64,000 nt of DNA. Origin: an uncultured Granulosicoccaceae bacterium (GTDB lineage Bacteria; Pseudomonadota; Gammaproteobacteria; Granulosicoccales; Granulosicoccaceae). The notes below the pieces were generated by a model, which saw only the letters and a list, made by a program, of their open reading frames with translations, made no database searches and was not told the origin of the DNA. A program made the position numbers and the translations under genes. The stretch lies in NCBI GenBank assembly GCA_937930305.1, contig CALGLE010000013.1:1-64000 (forward strand), read 5' to 3'. Every line of letters starts with the position of its first letter. Within the stretch, counting starts at the first letter, position 1. This document shows, one piece after another, positions 23,956 through 54,007 of the stretch.

Positions 23956-26007
<2,052 letters not shown>

Positions 26008-29210: not shown

Positions 29211-31280
29211 TTAATTCTGTAACGCGGTTATCTCGCGTCGGAAAGGCAATGCATCCCCCATGTCTGGCATGTCCAATTCTCGCGCGTATCGATGACCAGC
29301 GTAGGTTGCCCAAGCAATGGGACCAGGCGCTTCTGCATCCCCTAGTACCTTGATAGTCTTGATGCCGTTGTCAGACCATTCATTGGCCCTGGCCTCCAGC
29401 TCACGCCACACATCATCCACTGGCACTCTCGCCGTCACGAGCACAACCGCATCACAGCTTAGTGGGGATTGAATGGAGGTGAAGGTGCATTCGGTTTGTA
29501 CTACAGAATCTTCAATCGATGCCACCGCTCGATTCAGAACAATGTTGACTCCCATCCCGGCCAAGCGCTTATGAATTTCTGCTTGCTCCAATGTGTTAAT
29601 ACTCCATTCGGATACGTACGCCGCCGGAGTCACTAAGGTTACCTTCGCCCCGTGTTGGACCAACAACTCCGCTAACACCCCGCCCATGTAGTAGTGATCA
29701 TCGTCGTACAGCACCACGTTACCAGAGGGGAGATTACCGGCCATCAAATCATCCGGGGTGTAGATGGGCATGGCCTGGTGCATCGGTATCGGTTTTACAT
29801 GATAGCGGGCCACACCGTCCCGCCGCCAAGTGGATCCCGTCGTTAAGGCCACATGTTCAAATCCAAACTCGAGAATTTCATCGGCGCTTAAACGACTGTC
29901 AAAATAAGTTTGTACATTATTTTGTTGGCTGATTTGGTATTCGCGATAGTCCTTAACTCGACCCCAAGCCGATAATCCAGGTAATTGGCTTTCCAACGTG
30001 ACTCGACCACCCACTTCGGTGCCAGACTCTGCCAGTGCCACATCGTAACCACGCTTGGATAAGGCGAGTGCCGCTTCAAGGCCTGCAGGTCCTGCCCCCA
30101 CGATCAATACGTTCTGGGAGCTGCCTTGCTTGTTCATTTGCTCTGGATGCCAACCCTTTCGCCATTCCTCCATAAAGGTGGGATTTTGTGTGCAACGTGA
30201 GATGGACATGGTCATGTCACCGGTGATGCAAATATTGCAGCCAATGCACTCCCGGATATCTTCAATGCGCCCTTCTTCCACTTTTTTTGGCAGAAACGGA
30301 TCGGCAATGGATGGGCGAGCGCAGCCTATAAAGTCTAAAACACCGGACTTCACTTGTTTGACCATGACGTCTGGTGAAGTGAATCGACCGACTCCAACCA
30401 CCGGTTTGTTGGTGAGTGATTTGATACCTTGAACCAATTCTTGTTGAGCCGCCTCTTCTTTAAATCGCGATGGCCCAGAACAATCTTCCCAAGCACCATG
30501 CGCTAAGTCCCAAAGATCGGGTAGATCTTTATGCATTTCGATAAAGTCACGAACCTCTGAATTAGCAAAACCGAGATCACCGATCATTTCATCAAGCGAT
30601 AAGCGTAAGGTGATGCCCATGCTGTCGCCAATTTCATCGCGTGCATCGGAAATTACCTCACGCACAAACCGGGAACGATTCTCTAAACTCCCTCCGTATT
30701 CATCACTGCGATGGTTAGTCGCGGTAGACAAAAAATGTTGAAAAATTCCAAAACCATGCGCGCCATATAGGCACACCAAATCAAAGCCCGCTGTTTTGCT
30801 GCGTTTGAACGCGTTAACAAACCAACGTCGTAAGTTTTTAATATCCTGCTTGTTCATGGAGCGCGCATTGACAGGATCATTGGTGAATGTGCGTATGGGC
30901 ATTGCAGTGGGCGCCAGTGGCACTTCACGGGTATACAGGTTCGGTCCGTTGATGCCGGAATAAGCCAGCTGAATCCCAGCCAGGGCACCATGCTCTTTCA
31001 TGCGATCGGCCATTTTTGCCAATTGCGGAATGTCTTGGTCCTCCCACAATCGCAGTTCAATGAAGGGCGTTATTTCAGAGGAATGGTGCATTTCACATTG
31101 TTCTGTGAAAATAACCCCCCAACCGCCTTGCGATTTAACACCCCGCATTTCAGCGGCGGCTGATGGGTCACGATAGCCACCGCCGTTGCAATGTGGGACT
31201 TGATAGAAACGGTTCTTCGCCGTAACGGGGCCAATCTTCACTGGCTCGAACAGAATGTCGTAACGTGGATCACGAGCCAT
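29211..31280 (-). CDS. TMADH/histamine dehydrogenase-family flavoprotein (polyamine operon)
   Basis: This 689-residue protein aligns end to end with trimethylamine dehydrogenase. It starts MARDPRYDILFEPVKIGP and keeps C31 (FYQVPHC), the residue that links 6-S-cysteinyl FMN. Y172 and H175 (LYGAH) match the catalytic Tyr/His pair. The 4Fe-4S cysteines are C345, C348, C351 and a later Cys before TQN. An ADP/FAD-like domain ([11 protein letters not shown]) follows. The amine-binding aromatic bowl is changed: Q61 stands at the Tyr60 position and D355 at the Trp355 position, the substitutions I recall for Nocardioides histamine dehydrogenase. It likely oxidises a primary amine, di- or polyamine and passes electrons to ETF. 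The start lies 2 bases after the aphA stop. Confidence 0.85.
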   Translation of the reverse strand: MARDPRYDILFEPVKIGPVTAKNRFYQVPHCNGGGYRDPSAAAEMRGVKSQGGWGVIFTEQCEMHHSSEITPFIELRLWEDQDIPQLAKMADRMKEHGALAGIQLAYSGINGPNLYTREVPLAPTAMPIRTFTNDPVNARSMNKQDIKNLRRWFVNAFKRSKTAGFDLVCLYGAHGFGIFQHFLSTATNHRSDEYGGSLENRSRFVREVISDARDEIGDSMGITLRLSLDEMIGDLGFANSEVRDFIEMHKDLPDLWDLAHGAWEDCSGPSRFKEEAAQQELVQGIKSLTNKPVVGVGRFTSPDVMVKQVKSGVLDFIGCARPSIADPFLPKKVEEGRIEDIRECIGCNICITGDMTMSISRCTQNPTFMEEWRKGWHPEQMNKQGSSQNVLIVGAGPAGLEAALALSKRGYDVALAESGTEVGGRVTLESQLPGLSAWGRVKDYREYQISQQNNVQTYFDSRLSADEILEFGFEHVALTTGSTWRRDGVARYHVKPIPMHQAMPIYTPDDLMAGNLPSGNVVLYDDDHYYMGGVLAELLVQHGAKVTLVTPAAYVSEWSINTLEQAEIHKRLAGMGVNIVLNRAVASIEDSVVQTECTFTSIQSPLSCDAVVLVTARVPVDDVWRELEARANEWSDNGIKTIKVLGDAEAPGPIAWATYAGHRYARELDMPDMGDALPFRREITALQN

Positions 31281-31282
31281 GG

Positions 31283-32311
31283 TTAAGTACCTTCAAACCC
31301 TTGCAGCACATTCACGGTATTAACGCCTATCTCACCGATGTCATACCCGCCTTCCATAACAAACAGAGTGGGCAGGCCCAGTTGCGCGATGTCCGCGCCA
31401 TAAGTGATGAAGTCAGGCGATTGCAACTTAAAAAAGCTAATAGGATCATTTTCGAAGGTGTCGACACCCAGCGAAATAACCAAGGCATCCGGTGCGAATT
31501 CACTGACCTGTTTGAGTGCATCGGATAACGCTTCGCGCCATTGATCGAAACCGGTACCCGACTTCATGGGGTAGTTATGGTTAAAACCCACCCCGTCTGC
31601 CTCGCCTTGTTCGTCTGCATAGCCGAGAAAGTGTGGGAAAGCGTCGGTGGGATGTCCGTGTAAGGAGGCGAATAGCACGTCCTGACGTTTATAGAAAATA
31701 TCTTGCGTTCCATTGCCGTGATGAAAATCCACATCGACAATCGCAACACGCCTCGCCCCGTTATCTAAAAATGACTGCGCGGCTATGGCTGCGTTGTTAA
31801 GAAAGCAATAACCTCCGTACATATCTATGGCCGCGTGATGCCCCGGCGGTCGGCACAGTGCGAACACACCCTTGCTCCCGGCTAATACCTTTTGCACGCC
31901 GGTCAGGGCGACTTGCGACGACCAGTAGGCTGCCTCCCAGGTTCCGTCGCTGATAGAGGTTTCGCCCGCCATGGCGTAGTACCCCAGTTTTCCTTCGATA
32001 AATTCCGGTACTCGGTGACTCATGCGTCGAGCCGGCCAAGTCGTGGGAATGGCCTCACCCAGAAATTCCTCAGCCTGCCACAGCTCCCAGGCACTTTGTA
32101 AAAATTTGACATAGTGACGATCATGGACTTTATAGATAGGTTCAAAACCTAAATCTTGGGGATCTAGAATTGGGCCCAACTGGGTTTCTTGCACCCTATT
32201 TAATATGTACTCTGCACGGGAGGGTCGTTCAAACGGCTCCACCAATTGACCACCATACAATTCCGTCTTGGAATTCCTCAATCGATGCTTTTCGGTGTAA
32301 ATCGTCTTCAC
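31283..32311 (-). CDS. aphA: acetylpolyamine amidohydrolase (class II HDAC-like)
   Basis: This 342-residue zinc hydrolase closely follows the Mycoplana ramosa acetylpolyamine amidohydrolase: MKTIYTEKHRLRNSKTELYGG at the start, CRPPGHHAAIDMYGGYCFLNNAA (catalytic His pair), VDVDFHHGNGTQDIFY (zinc ligands), SLGVDTFENDPISFFKL (third ligand region) and MEGGYDIGEIGVN (catalytic Tyr). It removes acetyl groups from N-acetylputrescine, -spermidine or -cadaverine. It sits between the polyamine ABC importer genes (across a hairpin) and the flavoprotein gene, which starts 2 bases later. Its job is probably to deacetylate imported polyamines before amine oxidation or transamination. Confidence 0.93.
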   Translation of the reverse strand: MKTIYTEKHRLRNSKTELYGGQLVEPFERPSRAEYILNRVQETQLGPILDPQDLGFEPIYKVHDRHYVKFLQSAWELWQAEEFLGEAIPTTWPARRMSHRVPEFIEGKLGYYAMAGETSISDGTWEAAYWSSQVALTGVQKVLAGSKGVFALCRPPGHHAAIDMYGGYCFLNNAAIAAQSFLDNGARRVAIVDVDFHHGNGTQDIFYKRQDVLFASLHGHPTDAFPHFLGYADEQGEADGVGFNHNYPMKSGTGFDQWREALSDALKQVSEFAPDALVISLGVDTFENDPISFFKLQSPDFITYGADIAQLGLPTLFVMEGGYDIGEIGVNTVNVLQGFEGT

Positions 32312-40268: not shown

Positions 40269-40553
40269 ATGACAACGACTCCCTATCAACCTATTGATTG
40301 CCAGCTGTACGATTATCTCGAAATCGCCTGTATGGATGCTTACGACATCCAGGTAACGTTGCGCGAGGGACAAACGGTGCGTGGCAAAGCATCCACCACA
40401 GAAACTCGTAAGGACGGTGAGTATTTAATCATCAATACAGCGTCTGGTACTGAATCTGTGCGCTTAGATCAACTAATGACATTGGATGTGGAATCTGAGG
40501 CTAGACGTTTCGATTCTGTTTCCTTCCTTGATAAGGGACAAATCGATCAGTAA
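40269..40553 (+). CDS. rof: Rho-binding antiterminator (Rof/YaeO family)
   Basis: This 94-residue protein matches Rof: TPYQPIDCQLYDYLEIACMDAYDIQVTLREGQTVRGKAS, then EYLIINTASGTESVRLDQL, parallel to E. coli YQPINCDDYDNLELAC and EYLVVE...LRLDKI. Rof has an Sm-like fold and binds the Rho hexamer, reducing Rho-dependent termination. The gene is single, and is divergent from the VOC gene with 57 bases between starts. Length is close to the E. coli protein (84-86 residues). Confidence 0.88.
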   Translation: MTTTPYQPIDCQLYDYLEIACMDAYDIQVTLREGQTVRGKASTTETRKDGEYLIINTASGTESVRLDQLMTLDVESEARRFDSVSFLDKGQIDQ

Positions 40554-41521: not shown

Positions 41522-41842
41522 TTACCGATACTTTTCTATGTGTTTTACGATGTCCTGCGTTGAAAGCTGAGCTTCTGGAAAATCTCCCCAAGTTGGCCAT
41601 ACGTGCCAAAGCCCTTGCGCCTCTATCAGCTTGACGACGCCAATTGATTTTTTGATTTTAGCGGCGAGCCGAATGGAGTCATCGTGAATGCAAGTTTTCT
41701 TTAAAACAATGTGCTCTGAGGTTTCAACTAAGCGAGCGCTTTCTTCCCAAGCAAGTCGTTTGTCTTCGATCGGTGTGTTATCCAAAGAATCGCGAACAAG
41801 GGAAGATTTTATTTTTTTTGCTTGTTCGCTTAATTCACTCAA
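41522..41842 (-). CDS. small hypothetical protein
   Basis: This 106-residue frame starts with ATG and is not recognised. It is hydrophilic and mostly helical in character, with no signal peptide or membrane span. The N-terminal half is rich in Lys/Glu; the C-terminal half contains IGVVKLIEAQGLWHVWPTWGDFPEAQLSTQDIVKHIEKYR, a tryptophan-rich stretch. It ends 42 bases before the APH-fold kinase start on the same strand, so the two may be co-transcribed. Its length and a credible start favour a real gene, but support is limited. Confidence 0.55.
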   Translation of the reverse strand: MSELSEQAKKIKSSLVRDSLDNTPIEDKRLAWEESARLVETSEHIVLKKTCIHDDSIRLAAKIKKSIGVVKLIEAQGLWHVWPTWGDFPEAQLSTQDIVKHIEKYR

Positions 41843-41939: not shown

Positions 41940-43277
41940 CTATTGATCAAGCTGAATATGAAGAAACTTAACTGAATATCCGTCCCAGTCGATTGGGCCA
42001 AAATTACAATCGGGTCGCTCCCCGATGGTCCAAGTCAAGGTATTTTCACCCGGTAGTACATGGTCCCTATTTAATGCAATTCGAAAGCTTTTCCAATCGC
42101 TGCTATAGCAGTTATCCTTGTCGTACTCGTAGGGGTTTACGACTTGATTGGGTTGCCCATTCACACTGAGCAGTACTTGACCTCGCTTAGGGTTGTGTAG
42201 TTGCCCGAACAGCACGGGGTTATTACTGATTTCCTCGGGCAGTTGTACGGTGGTTGTTTGCGATTCACCGATTTGTCGATTTCCGTTCGCTTGTAAATAA
42301 ATTAAATCATTGGCTGGGTAAGACTCATAGCGTGAACCGATGGGTCCGTTAAAACGAATATTATCCCAGTGAAATGTGTAGGTATCGAAATTGCCGTCTT
42401 TTTGTGGTGTGTAGGCGTGAGTTTTAAAAACGACTAAACCTTTGGTAAATGGAAGCCCGCCAGGCACCGGAACCTTAAACCAATCGAATGTCCCTTGAGC
42501 TGTTTTTATACCCCATGAAATAGTGTCATCGTCAATGCGTATTTTCATGGTACGACGAATTCTTCGATCCACTAAGGCAGGGTCACTGGGATGTAAGTCG
42601 CCCCAATAGGCCCAATCCCATTGGCCAAATTGCCTTTTTTCGACAATCAGCCCATCGGATTGCGCATCACGTCCGCCCACATTGACTTGCCTGACTAACT
42701 CTCGAAATTGCAAAACGATACGATCCTCAGGATAATTTTCATCGATGGCGGCCCAGGCGGGGCCAGCTGCAACTTTTAATTGATCTCTTGGCACGATCAT
42801 AATTTCCCACCAATGGCGCTGACGATGCCCTTCGTTTACGTTGACATCGAACATCAGCTCTCCACCATCAGAGAAATCAAATTCCTGCTTTGGCCAAAAG
42901 GCTGAAATCGAATAAGGTGAAACATCCCCCATTGATGACATCATGTGGTTTTTACAAATGAAAAAACTGGAATCTGGGGTGAATCCGTTATCCGCTTGTG
43001 AGGTGTACACATCGTGCTGGGGTATCGCACTGGCGGCGGGATTCGGTCCAGCGCAGTTCAGGGCATGATCAGCCGCATAGGGCTGAAAATTCTTTGTGAA
43101 GTGTTCTTTTGGGTGTGTGCGATGGGTAACCACATAGTCCATGGTTTGAGGTAGCAGCGTTTGCGACGGTGCTGATGGGTCTCCGTCGAACCCTTCTGAA
43201 AACGCCCAAGGAGCTGCATGAGCCACAGTGGCAGCATTCAAACCTACGAGAGCAAAAAATATCATAACGCTTTTCAT
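41940..43277 (-). CDS. secreted beta-sandwich protein of unknown function
   Basis: This 445-residue protein starts at the ATG at 43277, giving a signal peptide MKSVMIFFALVGLNAATVAHA; an earlier ATG would add 33 residues before the leader. The mature part looks like a concanavalin/jelly-roll fold: GELMFDVNVNEGHRQRHWWEIMIVP, RTMKIRIDDDTISWGIKT and the closing strand YTFHWDNIRFNGP. A second beta-rich segment (about 330-445) resembles a carbohydrate-binding module. No GH16-type ExDxxE catalytic motif is visible, so it may bind rather than cut glycans. It is divergent from the kinase gene at 43720, across a 442-base regulatory region, and is the likely output of that system. Confidence 0.7.
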   Translation of the reverse strand: MKSVMIFFALVGLNAATVAHAAPWAFSEGFDGDPSAPSQTLLPQTMDYVVTHRTHPKEHFTKNFQPYAADHALNCAGPNPAASAIPQHDVYTSQADNGFTPDSSFFICKNHMMSSMGDVSPYSISAFWPKQEFDFSDGGELMFDVNVNEGHRQRHWWEIMIVPRDQLKVAAGPAWAAIDENYPEDRIVLQFRELVRQVNVGGRDAQSDGLIVEKRQFGQWDWAYWGDLHPSDPALVDRRIRRTMKIRIDDDTISWGIKTAQGTFDWFKVPVPGGLPFTKGLVVFKTHAYTPQKDGNFDTYTFHWDNIRFNGPIGSRYESYPANDLIYLQANGNRQIGESQTTTVQLPEEISNNPVLFGQLHNPKRGQVLLSVNGQPNQVVNPYEYDKDNCYSSDWKSFRIALNRDHVLPGENTLTWTIGERPDCNFGPIDWDGYSVKFLHIQLDQ

Positions 43278-43719
43278 ATGTTCGTAAAGAGCGCTCGGAT
43301 TTGAAGGGATACGTTTTGTGTAGAGCGCTGTGGTCGGTTTATTACCTATAACCAAATCGCGAGTGGTCCAGTTCATGGTATTGCTCCCAAAAGATGCTTG
43401 TGTGGTATCACTTCATGACAGTTCATGAATGCATGGGTCAAACTATGCTCGACTGTGGTTAAAGTTAACAGATCGTTTACGGGGCGAAATGGGGTTGATT
43501 GCGTAGTTCGTTACTCGCTAGTAATGTCCATTCCAGTAACTTTACTTGACGTTCATGCAACTGCATTGCAAGTAAGTATCTGATCCCAGTGATGTATTTA
43601 AAGTGACGGTGAGAACAGAACGTTTTGCGTCAATTCCAATTTGTAAGTCAATTGCAATGTTTATTAATTTTCAAACGATATAGTTAGTGGTCTGCAAAAC
43701 ACGACGTTAGGCATTTCTT
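43278..43719. promoter_or_regulatory. large divergent regulatory region with direct repeats
   Basis: This 442-base gap separates the secreted-protein gene and the kinase gene. It holds a 12-base direct repeat with one mismatch (GTCAATTCCAAT at 43629-43640, GTCAATTGCAAT at 43647-43658; period 18) close to the kinase start. A TTCATGA repeat with period 10 occurs at 43412-43431, nearer the secreted-protein gene. An imperfect symmetric element lies around 43551-43575. Direct repeats are the usual binding pattern of OmpR-type winged-helix proteins such as the one encoded at 45353. I see no gene here. Confidence 0.55.
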
Positions 43720-45306
43720 TTGAACTCATTCGACCCTGAATTGGCCAAGCTGGCTGGTTTTGAAATAAATGCTGAATCCATCGTGGGTGGACAATCTGTT
43801 GTATACCGAGCTCACTGCGCTAGCACGTCGAATGCTGTGGCATTAAAGGTCTATCACGATAAGGAAAATACGCATCAAGTTCTAAAAGAGGCCGCTGCCC
43901 TAGCCACCCTGAACCACCCTAATTTGGCGAAATTTGTCTCTGTTGGGTATTTCAACGACCAGGCCTACGTAGCCACTGAGTGGGTAGAGGGTGAGCGCCT
44001 TGGCGACGTGATGCGCACACAGGGGCCGCTAACCGTCGATCGAGCGATAGGCATAGCGCGGGCCATGGCGGATGGCTTAAGTGCCGCCCATGAACTCAAC
44101 ATTATTCATGGGGATATTTCTCCAGCCAACGTTTTGATAAGGCCAGACGGTTCACCTGTAATTATAGACTTTGGCTTAGGCCAAACATATAAGTTGACAG
44201 GCGCTACTGCGAAAACCGATACCCTTGGAACGCTTCGGTATGTCGCTCCTGAAATCATCAAAGGTGAAGGTCCGAGCTTCGCCACGGATCAATACGCCTT
44301 AGGCGTTCTGATTTACGAAATGCTCACCGGCACTTGGCCATTCGATTCGCAATGCGATGACCTTATCTTACAAGCTGCGAGTGCCTTACATCATCATCTT
44401 TATTCCAGCGTAGACCCCTTGATTGAAGCCCGTCCAGAGATCAGTGCGCAGCTTGATTCGACGGTTAACAAGGCCATTCACAAGCGACCAGAATGCCGAT
44501 ACGACAGCTTAGCTGCCTTGGAATTGGCTTTACAAGAATCCCCATACTTGGGCAAAAATGCTCGATTAGATCGAACACAGCTCATTCATTTATTACCCGC
44601 TGATGGGGTTCCCTATTCTCAAACACACAGGCGTTACTTCCAAAAAACGACTGCGCTACTTGGGGTTTTTATAGGGTGCATTGTTTGCACAACGCTTTTC
44701 GTTGGGGTGGCTAATACGCAAAGTTCTGTGATTGTTGGCCCTTCGGTTGGTGCATTACAAATGTCGGCTGCTAGCTCTTTTAAGCGGCATTTGCATACGA
44801 TCAATAATCAAGATAGCGCGCGACATCAACGCGCAGTTTCGGCAGGATGTGAAAACCTGATGCCAAACCCAGCGTTTAATTCACCTGTAAAAAACAACTT
44901 TTATCAAGATCCAACTTATCCGGATGTCGTCGAGATCGTTCATATGCCGGCAACGCAAACGTCACCACTCATCCGAGTCGGTGAGAAGAATCGATACGGT
45001 CTTTACGGACAAATAGTACCTATCGATGCCGCTTTGCATTACACATTTACGGTGCACACTTACCCGAGTTCTGGGCTAGAGCACGCGGAATTGATTGTCT
45101 CTTGGCTAGACAAAGACTGGCAGCTGATGAACGATGCGCATCTGAGAATGCGAATTGAACAACACACAGGTCAAGCCGTGTTTGATTCAATCCAAGTGCC
45201 ACAAAACGCGCACTTTGCGGTTCCGTCGGTTTATAAAAACGCATCCGAAGGAACGTTGTTGGTGGACAATCTTGTGTTCACTCAAGCCGGTGGTGACTGC
45301 ACGTGA
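43720..45306 (+). CDS. membrane Ser/Thr protein kinase with extracytoplasmic CBM-like domain
   Basis: This 528-residue protein starts at a TTG with TTAGG upstream. The kinase domain (about 14-275) has K43 (ALKVYH), E57, catalytic loop HGDISPAN (D132, N137), metal D150 in DFG and the APE motif in YVAPE. The catalytic loop is HGD, not HRD, so it is a non-RD kinase, and the glycine loop is degenerate (VGGQSVVY). One membrane helix (about 311-331) follows. The outer domain (about 377-528) starts CENLMPNPAFNSP and ends LLVDNLVFTQAGGDC, like galactose-binding/CBM4-9 folds; its flanking cysteines could pair. The FHA-winged-helix gene follows by 46 bases. A glycan-sensing kinase is the inferred role. 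Confidence 0.85.
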   Translation: MNSFDPELAKLAGFEINAESIVGGQSVVYRAHCASTSNAVALKVYHDKENTHQVLKEAAALATLNHPNLAKFVSVGYFNDQAYVATEWVEGERLGDVMRTQGPLTVDRAIGIARAMADGLSAAHELNIIHGDISPANVLIRPDGSPVIIDFGLGQTYKLTGATAKTDTLGTLRYVAPEIIKGEGPSFATDQYALGVLIYEMLTGTWPFDSQCDDLILQAASALHHHLYSSVDPLIEARPEISAQLDSTVNKAIHKRPECRYDSLAALELALQESPYLGKNARLDRTQLIHLLPADGVPYSQTHRRYFQKTTALLGVFIGCIVCTTLFVGVANTQSSVIVGPSVGALQMSAASSFKRHLHTINNQDSARHQRAVSAGCENLMPNPAFNSPVKNNFYQDPTYPDVVEIVHMPATQTSPLIRVGEKNRYGLYGQIVPIDAALHYTFTVHTYPSSGLEHAELIVSWLDKDWQLMNDAHLRMRIEQHTGQAVFDSIQVPQNAHFAVPSVYKNASEGTLLVDNLVFTQAGGDCT

Positions 45307-45352
45307 GAACGTCGACCAATCCAATCCCATTCATAAACACTAAGGACAGTCG

Positions 45353-46006
45353 ATGACTCTAGCACTGGTTGACAATGTCTGTGCCACTCTGCAACTGGCA
45401 GCAAACGACACCGCTGTGAGCCCCGAGCGTTGGCCGATTAATAAACCACTTATTATCGGACGTGAAAACGCGGACATCCAATTCAATATTCACACCCTCT
45501 CTCGGCAACATGCTGAAATTAAACCAGTATCTTCAAACTATCTTATTCGAGATTTAAATAGTCGTAACGGGACGGCAGTTAATGGTCATTTCCTCACAGA
45601 AGACCCGGTCGCACTGAAAAGTGGTGATTCCATTTTGCTAGCGGGGAAAGTAGAATTCAGTTTTCTCATCCCACTAGCCACCCCTTCGGTTCCTAGGTTA
45701 GGTGCCACTAAAGGTCTTTGGATTGATCCGATAAGCGAGGCGGTGTGGATTAATGCACATCGCATCGATCCCCCATTATCAAGAAAACAATTCACCCTGC
45801 TTACACTCATCGCCGCAGCGGACGGCAAGCCGGTGAGCCGCGAAGAAATAGCATTGGCTATCTGGCCCAATGCCAGTCCCGGGCACATCAGTCACGACGC
45901 CATAGATTCTTTAATCAAAAGACTGCGTAAGAAACTTAAACCCTTAGAAGGCAAGAAACTCATTTTGGAAATGGTACGAGGGCGAGGCATTCGATTGATT
46001 AAGTAA
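45353..46006 (+). CDS. FHA-domain plus winged-helix transcription regulator
   Basis: This 217-residue protein joins an FHA phosphothreonine-binding domain (about 30-105: IIGRENADIQF with G36-R37, LSRQHAEI with S50/R51/H53, LIRDLNSRNGTAVNG) to an OmpR-type winged helix (about 128-217: LSRKQFTLLTLIAAADGKPVSREEIALAIWP and DSLIKRLRKKLKPLEGKKLILEMVRGRGIRLIK). No receiver domain is present. It lies 46 bases after the membrane kinase gene, with RBS-like TAAGGAC. The likely logic is that kinase phosphorylation creates or alters an FHA ligand and so changes DNA binding at the divergent region upstream of 43720. Both domains are clear; the signalling link is inference. Confidence 0.88.
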   Translation: MTLALVDNVCATLQLAANDTAVSPERWPINKPLIIGRENADIQFNIHTLSRQHAEIKPVSSNYLIRDLNSRNGTAVNGHFLTEDPVALKSGDSILLAGKVEFSFLIPLATPSVPRLGATKGLWIDPISEAVWINAHRIDPPLSRKQFTLLTLIAAADGKPVSREEIALAIWPNASPGHISHDAIDSLIKRLRKKLKPLEGKKLILEMVRGRGIRLIK

Positions 46007-50723: not shown

Positions 50724-52766
50724 TCACGTAAATTGAATTTGATCTCTTTTCTGAGTCCATAAAACGTTTTCACCCGCCAATACACTTCTGGCCACACTGT
50801 GGCCAGAAAAAACGGCTGCCTGAATTATGCCAGGAGTTAAACAGTCACCTGCTTTCCTAACCACCAAATCCGGGTTAATGGTATGAATTTCGGCCTCTAA
50901 AGCGTCAACGGGCACTCTTGCTCCGACAAAAACCAAGTCGGTCAGCGGCACTTCGACGTTCTCTCCCGTAAGGACGTTAACAAAGGTTGCATTGTTTTGC
51001 AGCTGGGTATTCGGCAGTAACTTGACCTTTAATTGGTTGAGCTTGGCAATGATGGCAGCTTGCTCCAACGTGTTATCTGTCCAGGTGGCGATACTGGGCA
51101 AGGGCGTGACGTATGAAACCGAATGACCATCTAAGGCAAGTTTTTCAGCGATTGAACTACCCATATAAAAGTGATCGTCATCTTAGACAACCACCTGACT
51201 TGCTTCAGCAAGAGTGACCTCATCCAAAATATCGTCACAGGTATGCACATTAATCGCACCGAAGTTTACTGGCTCAGAATTACAGGAGCCCACCCCGTCA
51301 CCACGCCATTTTGCGCCCGTGGCTAACACGATACTATCGCACTCAAAATCAGAAATATCAGCGGCGCTCATGACGCTGTTTAAGTAAAGCTCTGCGTTTG
51401 CGTGTTGGTTGATGAGTTGAAGCCGATAATCTCGCACCCTTGCCCAGCTAGACAAACCAGGCAATCGGCTTTCTTTACTCACGCGACCACCGGGTTCAGA
51501 AGCTGCGTCTGCAATGGTGACTTGTTGCCCCGCTTTGAGCAGTGCGTGCGCACACTCCAATCCAGCGGGGCCTGCACCTATGATTATGTGGTGCTTAAGA
51601 TGCGACTGGGTTTGATGCAATGTCGCAGGTGCTTCAGGATGCCAATCGCGACGCCATTCTTCCGAAATCGTGGGGTTTTGTGTGCAACGGATTGGTAAAC
51701 CATAGCTGTCCATGCTGACGCAAATGTTGCAACCGATACACTCGCGAATGGTTTCGATCTCACCGGATCGAATTTTGTTCGGCATAAACGGATCAGCAAT
51801 TGACGGACGGGCCGCACCAATTAAGTCGAGTCTGCCTTTTTTTACAAGCGATACCATAGCGTCAGCAGAGGTAAAACGTCCGACGCCCACCACCGGTTTA
51901 CTTGTCACTGTTTTTACAAAATCGGTGTAGGGCAGTTGGAATCCTTCGTCCGCGAATCGAGCTGTAGCGCTGTCTTTTGCCCACCCGGATAGATTGACAT
52001 CCCATAAATCCGGCAGCTCAGCGAGTGCTTCCACGACATCTCGACCTTCCCCATCACTGGTTAGACCCTGCGCCCTACCCGGTTCTGCCACACTAAAACG
52101 CAAGGCCACCGCACGTTTTCCATCGGCGACCTCCAAGGTATCTTCGATGACTTCTCTCAATAAACGAATCCGATTTGAAAACGATCCACCGTATTGATCG
52201 TTACGTTTATTCGTGTTAATCGATAAAAAATGGCTCAGTAAAGAGATGTCGTGAGCTGCGTAAACGTACAGTATGTCGTATCCGGCTTGCACGGCGCGTC
52301 GAGCCGCAGCCTTGTGCGATTCACGAAACGCGTGAATGTCTGCAAGTGACATCGCTTTCGCTTGCACGGGCACTTCAGGGCGTAATACCGGATAAGCGCT
52401 TGGGCCTAAGACCGGTAACCCGGAGGTCATGTTTCTGGCCCGCATTCCACCGTGTCCTAACTCGATGGCCGCCAGACTTCCATGACGCTTTATCGCATCC
52501 ACTTGGGCTGCGTGTCTTGGGATATCGCTATCGTCCCAGATCCGTTCCATCGGATGGTTTGCCATATCCGTATCAGCGCTAATTTCCGAAATCTGAACCG
52601 CTACAGTACCCCAACCGCCTTCCGCTTTCATGGTGCGTAAGGCCATGGCACCGTTGGGCTGATTCCAACCGTGGCCGGTGGCGTGTGGAACCGCGTAGAA
52701 ACGATTCGGAGCCGTTACTGGCCCAATTTTTACGGGCTCAAACAGTATTTCGTAGGGAGAACTCAT
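50724..52766 (-). pseudogene. TMADH/histamine dehydrogenase-family flavoprotein interrupted by one in-frame TAA
   Basis: Two frames in the same phase (52766-51183 and 51180-50724) together encode a near full-length flavoprotein of about 680 residues, paralogous to the 29211 product. Start ATG 52766 overlaps the Tm-1-like stop (ATGA). The break is a TAA after QVVV and before DDDHFYMGSS. In the paralogue the same place reads VVLYDDDHYYMGG, so the stop replaces a Tyr codon by one base change. Other traits: Ala replaces the flavin-linking Cys (FYAVPHATGHG), Tyr/His are kept (YVYAAHD), and the Fe-S motif is CIGCNICVSMD. Possible explanations are a recent pseudogene, a split two-part enzyme, or a sequencing error. 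Confidence 0.85.
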
Positions 52767-54007
52767 TCGGACACCTGATTTGTAACTACGCCATCTTGCA
52801 CCCATTCGTCAAACAGTTCTAATACACGATCAGAAAATGCTTGATCATTAATGTGTGCATCAATCTCGACAAGCTCTGTTGGGGCTTTAAATACGCGACG
52901 CGCTTCGTCAATAAAGGCGTTCAGCCCCGCAGGGTCGTGAGCCGCTTCTCCCTCTCGATCCCATTCTTCCAAACCCTGTAAAGGTAACAGAACTTGCACC
53001 GGAGCGGATGCGTTTGAAAGACGATCCGCCATGGCGCGCGCGGTTTCACGTCTTTCTTCTTCATTAAGCGCCGAACTTTTGATCAATCGATTGTGTGCGT
53101 GGAATGGGCGATCAGCGTAGCGTTCAGGGATGTCCTGCCAACCGGCGAAATCAATTAAATCTAAACACCCTGGAGCAATCAGCTGCGGTATGCCTGCACG
53201 ACCGGCATTCAACAACCGATCTTCTCCACCATTAACAACCGATCCTGCTAATAGATTACCCAGCTCCGGTAAGGCAAAGTCCATAACGCACACAAACCCA
53301 CCCTGCGAGGCAATTTTTTCAAACGCCATTCCACCCATGCCTGTGGCATGAAAAATGGCCACTTCAAAGCCTCTTTCTTCCAGCGCAGGCTTTAAATTTT
53401 TCATATACGACAGACAGGAACTGCCTAAAGAAGTCATACCGATGACAGGGCGTGTGGTTGAGGGTAGCTCGACAGAGCGAGCCGCCCCTAACACCGCCCC
53501 GGCGGCTTGGCTAAGTGAGGCTTTACAAATGGAGCTTAAACCGTACAGGCCCCCTGCCCAAAGAATCATTTGAATGTCAGGAGATAGTCGATCCGGCGGA
53601 ATGAGCGCTGAAAACGACACCGTAGAGACGACGTATTTTGGTACACCAAGTGGTAACGCCTGACACACATCGAGCGCCAAATCCGTACCCATGGTGCCAC
53701 CCAGTATCAGCACGCCGTGTATATCACCACTTCGGTGCAGCTCTGCAGTCAGTTGCGATGCGCCTTTTGCCATGATCTGCATGGCCATATTCTCATCACC
53801 AGAATCTATCGCTGCTTTAATGCTACTTTGGGCCGCTTCTGCGACTTGGTGCTTGGACACATCACAGGCAACTGCTGCCTCTCCTAGCACACTGACATCC
53901 ATCGTTTTCACTTGCCCGTCTTGGCGTTGAATACACTGCGCTATGTACTCAAGTTCAGCCTGTTTTGTGTCGTAGGTACCGACTATTAAGATAGTTGGAT
54001 TATTCAT
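52763..54007 (-). CDS. Tm-1-like ATP-binding domain protein (UPF0261)
   Basis: This 414-residue protein (ATG at 54007, MNNPTILIVGTYDTKQAELEYIAQ; a TTG 39 bases upstream is the longer alternative) matches the UPF0261/Tm-1-like family. Blocks include VLILGGTMGTDLALDVCQALPLGVPKYVVSTVSFSALIPP, FHATGMGGMAFEKIASQGGFVCVMDFALPELGNLLAGSVVNGGEDRL and PLQGLEEWDREGEAAHDPAGLNAFIDE. The tomato Tm-1 homologue blocks a viral replicase; bacterial members bind nucleotide and have no settled role. The stop overlaps the start of the interrupted TMADH-like gene by 4 bases, so the two were translationally coupled, pointing to a role in amine or methylamine metabolism. Confidence 0.85.
   Translation of the reverse strand: MNNPTILIVGTYDTKQAELEYIAQCIQRQDGQVKTMDVSVLGEAAVACDVSKHQVAEAAQSSIKAAIDSGDENMAMQIMAKGASQLTAELHRSGDIHGVLILGGTMGTDLALDVCQALPLGVPKYVVSTVSFSALIPPDRLSPDIQMILWAGGLYGLSSICKASLSQAAGAVLGAARSVELPSTTRPVIGMTSLGSSCLSYMKNLKPALEERGFEVAIFHATGMGGMAFEKIASQGGFVCVMDFALPELGNLLAGSVVNGGEDRLLNAGRAGIPQLIAPGCLDLIDFAGWQDIPERYADRPFHAHNRLIKSSALNEEERRETARAMADRLSNASAPVQVLLPLQGLEEWDREGEAAHDPAGLNAFIDEARRVFKAPTELVEIDAHINDQAFSDRVLELFDEWVQDGVVTNQVSE

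Follow-up and report, generated by a model that had tools for sequence, protein, structure and literature searches.

Organization of the locus

The window, i.e., the whole 64-kb stretch of DNA that was analysed, carries a gene for a membrane Ser/Thr protein kinase, a gene 46 bases downstream that joins a forkhead-associated (FHA) domain to a winged helix-turn-helix (FHA-wHTH), and a divergent gene for a probable secreted protein (Table 1). The ORF list confirmed the gene positions, TTG start, intergenic distance and divergent arrangement given in a preliminary description of this DNA. The frame of the secreted protein can be extended to 43376 (longest ORF 41940-43376, minus strand), which would leave 343 bases to the kinase; the Met at 43277, judged by eye to begin a probable signal peptide, gives a divergent gap of 442 bases. 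A consensus scan of this gap found no sigma-70-like promoter.

Table 1. Features of the kinase locus and their positions in the window.
Feature	Position	Strand	Remarks
Ser/Thr protein kinase, membrane	43720..45306	+	TTG start, 528 aa, kinase domain N-terminal
FHA-wHTH regulator	45353..46006	+	217 aa; N-terminal FHA, C-terminal OmpR/PhoB-type winged helix
Secreted protein (probable), divergent	41940..43277	-	Probable signal peptide, putative ConA-like (lectin-like) region, C-terminal beta region
Divergent intergenic region, secreted protein/kinase	43278..43719		ORF positions
CBM16/CBM4-like outer domain of kinase, C-terminal	44848..45303	+	Residues 377-528; predicted fold
Candidate FHA-wHTH operator, degenerate 11-bp direct repeats reading toward kinase	43469..43501	+	Weight matrix

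Just past the secreted gene lies a 106-residue ORF without a Pfam match (41522-41842), and the contigs of two related genomes, G015 and G007, stop inside the secreted gene, before the position that would match it. Elsewhere in the window we noted a gene for ROF, a modulator of Rho termination (40269-40553; PF07073, E 3.7e-24), three separate fusions of Oxidored_FMN and Pyr_redox type inside 30 kb (23956-25980, 29211-31280, and 51183-52805), and a histone-deacetylase-family protein (31283-32311) between an ABC transporter cluster and an Oxidored_FMN fusion.

The kinase and its outer domain

The kinase matched Pkinase in a Pfam scan (E 2.8e-42), and Lys43, Glu57, His130-x-Asp132, Asn137, and Asp150-Phe-Gly were invariant in the five aligned kinases. 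The single membrane helix claimed earlier is borne out by a single hydrophobic stretch (~residues 309-334; best 19-residue mean 2.47, at residue 313), whose N-terminal flank is the richer in positive charge. The corresponding peak exceeded 1.6 in four of the five kinases compared and reached 1.52 in that of G038.

Pfam assigned a family neither to the outer domain nor to the secreted protein, no CBM match was found by Pfam in the outer domain of any of the five members, and searches of PDB sequences returned no significant match for either. Structure prediction of the outer domain gave a CBM-type beta-sandwich, with CBM16, CBM4, and CBM61 among its best structural matches; the same jelly-roll fold also matched meprin MAM, Cry, and phage fibre domains. 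The prediction thus supports a CBM16/CBM4-like fold, as had been suggested for residues 377-528. A profile of the five outer domains matched a stretch of a G015 protein (E 3.9e-5) that Pfam names CBM_4_9, and hhalign related the outer domain to the CBM_4_9-type module of the G015 protein with an E-value of 7e-6. At locus L055 of G015 (contig C137, 37-2214) we observed a galactose-oxidase/glyoxal-oxidase-like protein with two CBM_4_9-type modules, one of them related to the kinase outer domain.

The FHA-wHTH regulator

In the regulator, Pfam identified FHA at residues 34-96 (E 5.2e-17) and Trans_reg_C at residues 141-215 (E 3.6e-13; 49.8 bits against a cut-off of 26.2), and the sole further match was a weak one to Yop-YscD. 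The scan found neither a receiver domain nor a BTAD, and FHA occupies the position of the receiver, so that the protein is an FHA and OmpR-type winged-helix protein without receiver, as initially described. The phosphothreonine motif of FHA domains is given as GR, SxxH, and NG (PMC1262709); its counterparts here, G36-R37, S50-x-x-H53, and N77-G78, were invariant in four aligned FHA-wHTH proteins, that of G038 being left out of the alignment because its gene contains unknown bases.

Distribution and co-occurrence of the genes

We searched 48 genomes of the family, 143 relatives including those 48, and 369 genomes of the class, the last with only 4 of the family among the rows listed. The outer domain occurred in five of the 48 family genomes: G000, which is the window's own, G007, which belongs to the same genus, G015, G022, and G038, the last four all being drafts of at least 150 contigs. 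Both halves of the FHA-wHTH protein stood out in five of the 143 relatives, and these were the same five genomes. Profile E-values were 5.8e-63 in G022, 5.1e-59 in G007, and 6.7e-55 in G015, and the copy beside the G038 kinase matched in two pieces (E 5.2e-29 and 4.8e-16). The chance that two independent sets of five genomes among 48 coincide is ~1 in 1.7 million draws if kinship is ignored. Kinase and regulator genes were adjacent and on the same strand in all five genomes, so that their linkage is strict; 16, 20, and 28 bases separate them in G015, G022, and G038, and in G007 the stop codon of the kinase is overlapped by a GTG (1949) in the FHA frame, the two genes thus overlapping if the nearest start codon is used.

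Among the 369 class genomes, the profiles of the outer domain and of the secreted protein matched in the window's own genome alone, and that of FHA-wHTH (E <= 1e-12) matched there and in two further genomes, in the latter over the FHA part only. When the FHA protein by itself was used to scan genome contigs, 50 stretches matched, none of them relatives, and the outer-domain alignment gave 22 matches, four of which were relatives. Eleven FHA-type loci outside the five genomes were rejected as relatives: FHA was found in all 11 and Trans_reg_C (E <= 0.01) in none. G038 also has a further FHA-wHTH piece on another contig, with no such kinase within the 2.8 kb read. In G022, a second FHA-wHTH 3' end at a contig edge (L048, contig C211, 1-3109) is near-identical to that of the main copy as far as the stop codon. 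Beyond it the two differ, and a DUF1800 gene follows that is different from the one at the main locus; the draft genome could hold either two copies or a mixture of strains.

The secreted protein and neighbouring genes

Of the "secreted beta-sandwich" protein described initially, secretion stands as probable by the signal peptide recognized by eye, whereas the beta-sandwich is only a lead, provided by lectin-like structural matches to a model of pLDDT 48. A strong homologue was present in three of the 143 genomes (the window's own, G015, and G007), all among the five with the kinase-FHA pair, and in all three its gene is divergent beside the kinase. In G015, 145 bases separate the two; in G007 the first part of the secreted gene lies in the same divergent position, at the end of a contig, and the later part is on another contig. 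A weak homologue in G004 (E 5.2e-4) is a probable lipoprotein by eye, and no kinase or FHA frame was seen by eye among the ORFs of at least 150 aa in the 7.8 kb read around it.

The other two genomes have other secreted-type genes there. In G022 the gene divergent to the kinase encodes a DUF1800 protein and is followed by DUF1501 and then a discoidin-type protein; in G038 the kinase, FHA, GH44, DUF1800, and DUF1501 genes follow one another in this order on one strand. Co-occurrence of the three genes, which had been named as a check, therefore holds for the pair in five of five genomes and for the trio in three. Secreted proteins of glycan type do lie beside the pair, in the form of GH44, discoidin-type, and lectin-like neighbours. 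The DUF1800 proteins of the G022 and G038 loci share 74% identity; however, since a control search found DUF1800 in 47 of the 48 family genomes (G000-G047), at up to eight places each, its position beside the pair is modest evidence. The G038 GH44 protein and its DUF1800 neighbour have a common N-terminal module (40% identity over 145 residues, E 5e-31). This module, which has no Pfam family, was observed on the GH44 enzyme and on DUF1800 proteins (L042, 6027-8174 and 3335-5521; L043, 3480-5666). DUF1501 follows DUF1800 in both loci checked, and some DUF1800 places lie in open frames of more than 1,400 codons.

A candidate operator

Upstream of the kinase in G015, G007, and G022 are at least three tandem 11-bp repeats with the core GGTCG, oriented toward the kinase. 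When the best repeat score over periods of 8-15 was compared with 300 dinucleotide shuffles, the three-copy score was reached by 0 (G015), 0 (G007), and 3 (G022) shuffles and the two-copy score by 16, 118, and 40, respectively; the test found nothing in the window gap or in G038. G015, G007, and G022 each contain the exact triple pattern a single time, always before this kinase, and no copy was found in the G000 or G038 genomes. Since the pattern was derived from these very sites, the point is that G015, G007, and G022 hold no further ones. By way of comparison, PhoP of Mycobacterium tuberculosis is reported to bind direct repeats of 7 bp set 4 bp apart, so that its sites have the same 11-bp period (PMC4832192).

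We then scored the window with a matrix built from 11 units of the three other genomes and none from the window. The best place on either strand of the 64 kb was 43469, inside the 442-base gap and directed toward the kinase, with a two-copy score of 14.5 (next 12.1) and a three-copy score of 12.5 (next 7.8). In 400 kb from other stretches of the same genome, one place (two-copy) and two places (three-copy) scored as high; therefore, chance would put ~0.001-0.002 of them in the gap. With leave-one-out matrices, the left-out site came first in its contig in all three runs (28.9-32.2), and 43469 ranked first in the window by two-copy score in all three. Since its score is far below that range, the window site is at best degenerate, and the repeats at 43469-43501 weakly suggest a candidate operator of the FHA-wHTH protein. 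The candidate falls within the stretch 43278-43719 proposed earlier for gel shift. For G038, shuffles, exact pattern, matrix, and leave-one-out scoring all failed to find an operator. Matches with one mismatch were not used, since the pattern with up to one mismatch gave 6 places against 21 for a reversed control in the five genomes, so only places with no mismatch count; we also set aside a 10-bp TTCATG repeat of the window, whose score was reached in 62 of 300 shuffles.

Comparison with known systems

The preliminary description knew of no described pathway with this set of genes. This does not hold for the pair, since M. tuberculosis has a described kinase and FHA-wHTH pair, PknH-EmbR, whose genes, embR and pknH, share one operon (PMC9239209). 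As there, a membrane Ser/Thr kinase gene adjoins that of a regulator with FHA and OmpR/PhoB-type domains, here in five of five genomes. EmbR consists of an OmpR/PhoB-like domain, a BTAD, and an FHA domain that is required for interaction with PknH and for phosphorylation, and this 2022 paper reports that EmbR phosphorylation was not detected in vivo under normal growth (PMC9239209). Unlike EmbR as it is described there, the present regulator has FHA first and wHTH last, with no BTAD found, and unlike PknH the sensor is CBM-like by predicted fold and has no Pfam family. The type of pair is thus known, and the CBM-like sensor and domain layout are what appear to differ.

In plan, the kinase as predicted here resembles the RsgI anti-sigma factors of Clostridium thermocellum, membrane regulators whose outside C-terminal CBM is reported to bind polysaccharide and to control secreted glycan enzymes; there, however, the route is a sigma factor (PMC4711584), whereas here it would be a kinase and an FHA regulator. 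With PASTA kinases of the PknB/PrkC type it shares a Hanks-type kinase, one membrane helix, and a C-terminal outer part, but its best NCBIfam match, NF033483 over residues 19-274, missed the cut-off (199.5 against 450 bits) and the Pfam scan found no PASTA repeat, unlike in PknB, StkP, and PrkC. The regulator differs from OmpR/PhoB-type response regulators in having FHA instead of a receiver ahead of the winged helix. Among the matches listed from the open-licence literature, none described a bacterial Ser/Thr kinase that carries a carbohydrate-binding module and has an FHA regulator.

Proposed mechanism and alternatives

The anatomy alone is demonstrated, namely gene order and its conservation, the predicted fold, intact catalytic and phosphothreonine-binding residues, and operator-like repeats. 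We propose that the CBM-like domain, outside the inner membrane, meets an extracytoplasmic ligand, with a polysaccharide as the likeliest candidate, and that binding would alter the association of the kinase, which would then autophosphorylate. The FHA domain of the regulator would dock on a phosphothreonine of the kinase, and the kinase would phosphorylate or reposition the regulator, whose OmpR/PhoB-type winged helix would act at the tandem 11-bp direct repeats before the kinase gene. In this way the regulator would control the kinase-regulator operon and, where one is divergent there, the secreted gene. Detailed topology, ligand, phosphorylation, DNA binding, and sign of regulation are what we infer. 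We regard such a relay, from glycan ligand through kinase and FHA regulator to the 11-bp repeats, as the best explanation, and hold it with a little more conviction than doubt.

The same relay could instead serve an outer domain that senses the bacterium's own envelope (peptidoglycan or lipopolysaccharide) or a protein, the secreted proteins then being envelope or matrix factors. The generic fold, with its MAM, Cry, and phage fibre matches, would allow this, and there are precedents in PknB, whose outer domain is reported to bind lipid II (PMC6428115), and in PknH-EmbR, which has been tied to the bacterium's own cell-wall arabinogalactan (PMC9239209). However, CBM16, CBM4, and CBM61 are among the best structural matches, and GH44, discoidin-type, and lectin-like proteins are among the neighbours, and we consider envelope sensing rather unlikely. 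We give less credence still, as distinctly improbable, to the idea that the pair regulates only itself and has no link with the secreted gene, which would face it by chance. It would fit the uniqueness of the exact triple pattern in the three genomes, the direction of the repeats toward the kinase in all of them, and the variation of the adjoining secreted gene between genomes, but among the 143 relatives strong matches to the secreted protein were confined to pair-bearing genomes and faced the pair in three of three, and the G022 repeats are closer to the DUF1800 start (79 bases) than to the kinase start (228 bases).

It is also conceivable that the FHA-wHTH protein serves another kinase of the genome, which has four more kinase-like places, or acts without phosphorylation, adjacency then reflecting shared transcription only; for EmbR itself, several kinases are reported to phosphorylate it in vitro, with no phosphorylation detected in vivo (PMC9239209). 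Against this, kinase and regulator were inherited together in five of 48 genomes and the phosphothreonine-site residues were invariant in the four aligned proteins, and we consider this explanation very improbable. Returning to the glycan relay, a broader reading would see in it a Gram-negative, alga-associated polysaccharide receptor kinase whose dedicated FHA-wHTH protein takes the phospho-signal straight to 11-bp-repeat operators before interchangeable secreted glycan genes, i.e., the Ser/Thr equivalent of a two-component system. This reading is tentative, and we lean slightly toward doubting it.

Biological significance

To our knowledge, it is rare for a bacterial Ser/Thr kinase to have a credible class of ligand as well as a dedicated transcription factor whose binding site is predicted. 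Here everything from sensor and kinase to docking protein and candidate operator lies within ~4 kb and, therefore, three genes and one promoter could suffice to reconstitute the entire path. Alginate lyase genes have been reported in kelp-associated Granulosicoccaceae (PMC9238374), which would suit a glycan signal without pinpointing one. If the proposed relay is true, it would bear on how marine, alga-associated bacteria such as Granulosicoccus respond to kelp polysaccharides, since Granulosicoccus is described as a common alga-associated genus (PMC9238374).
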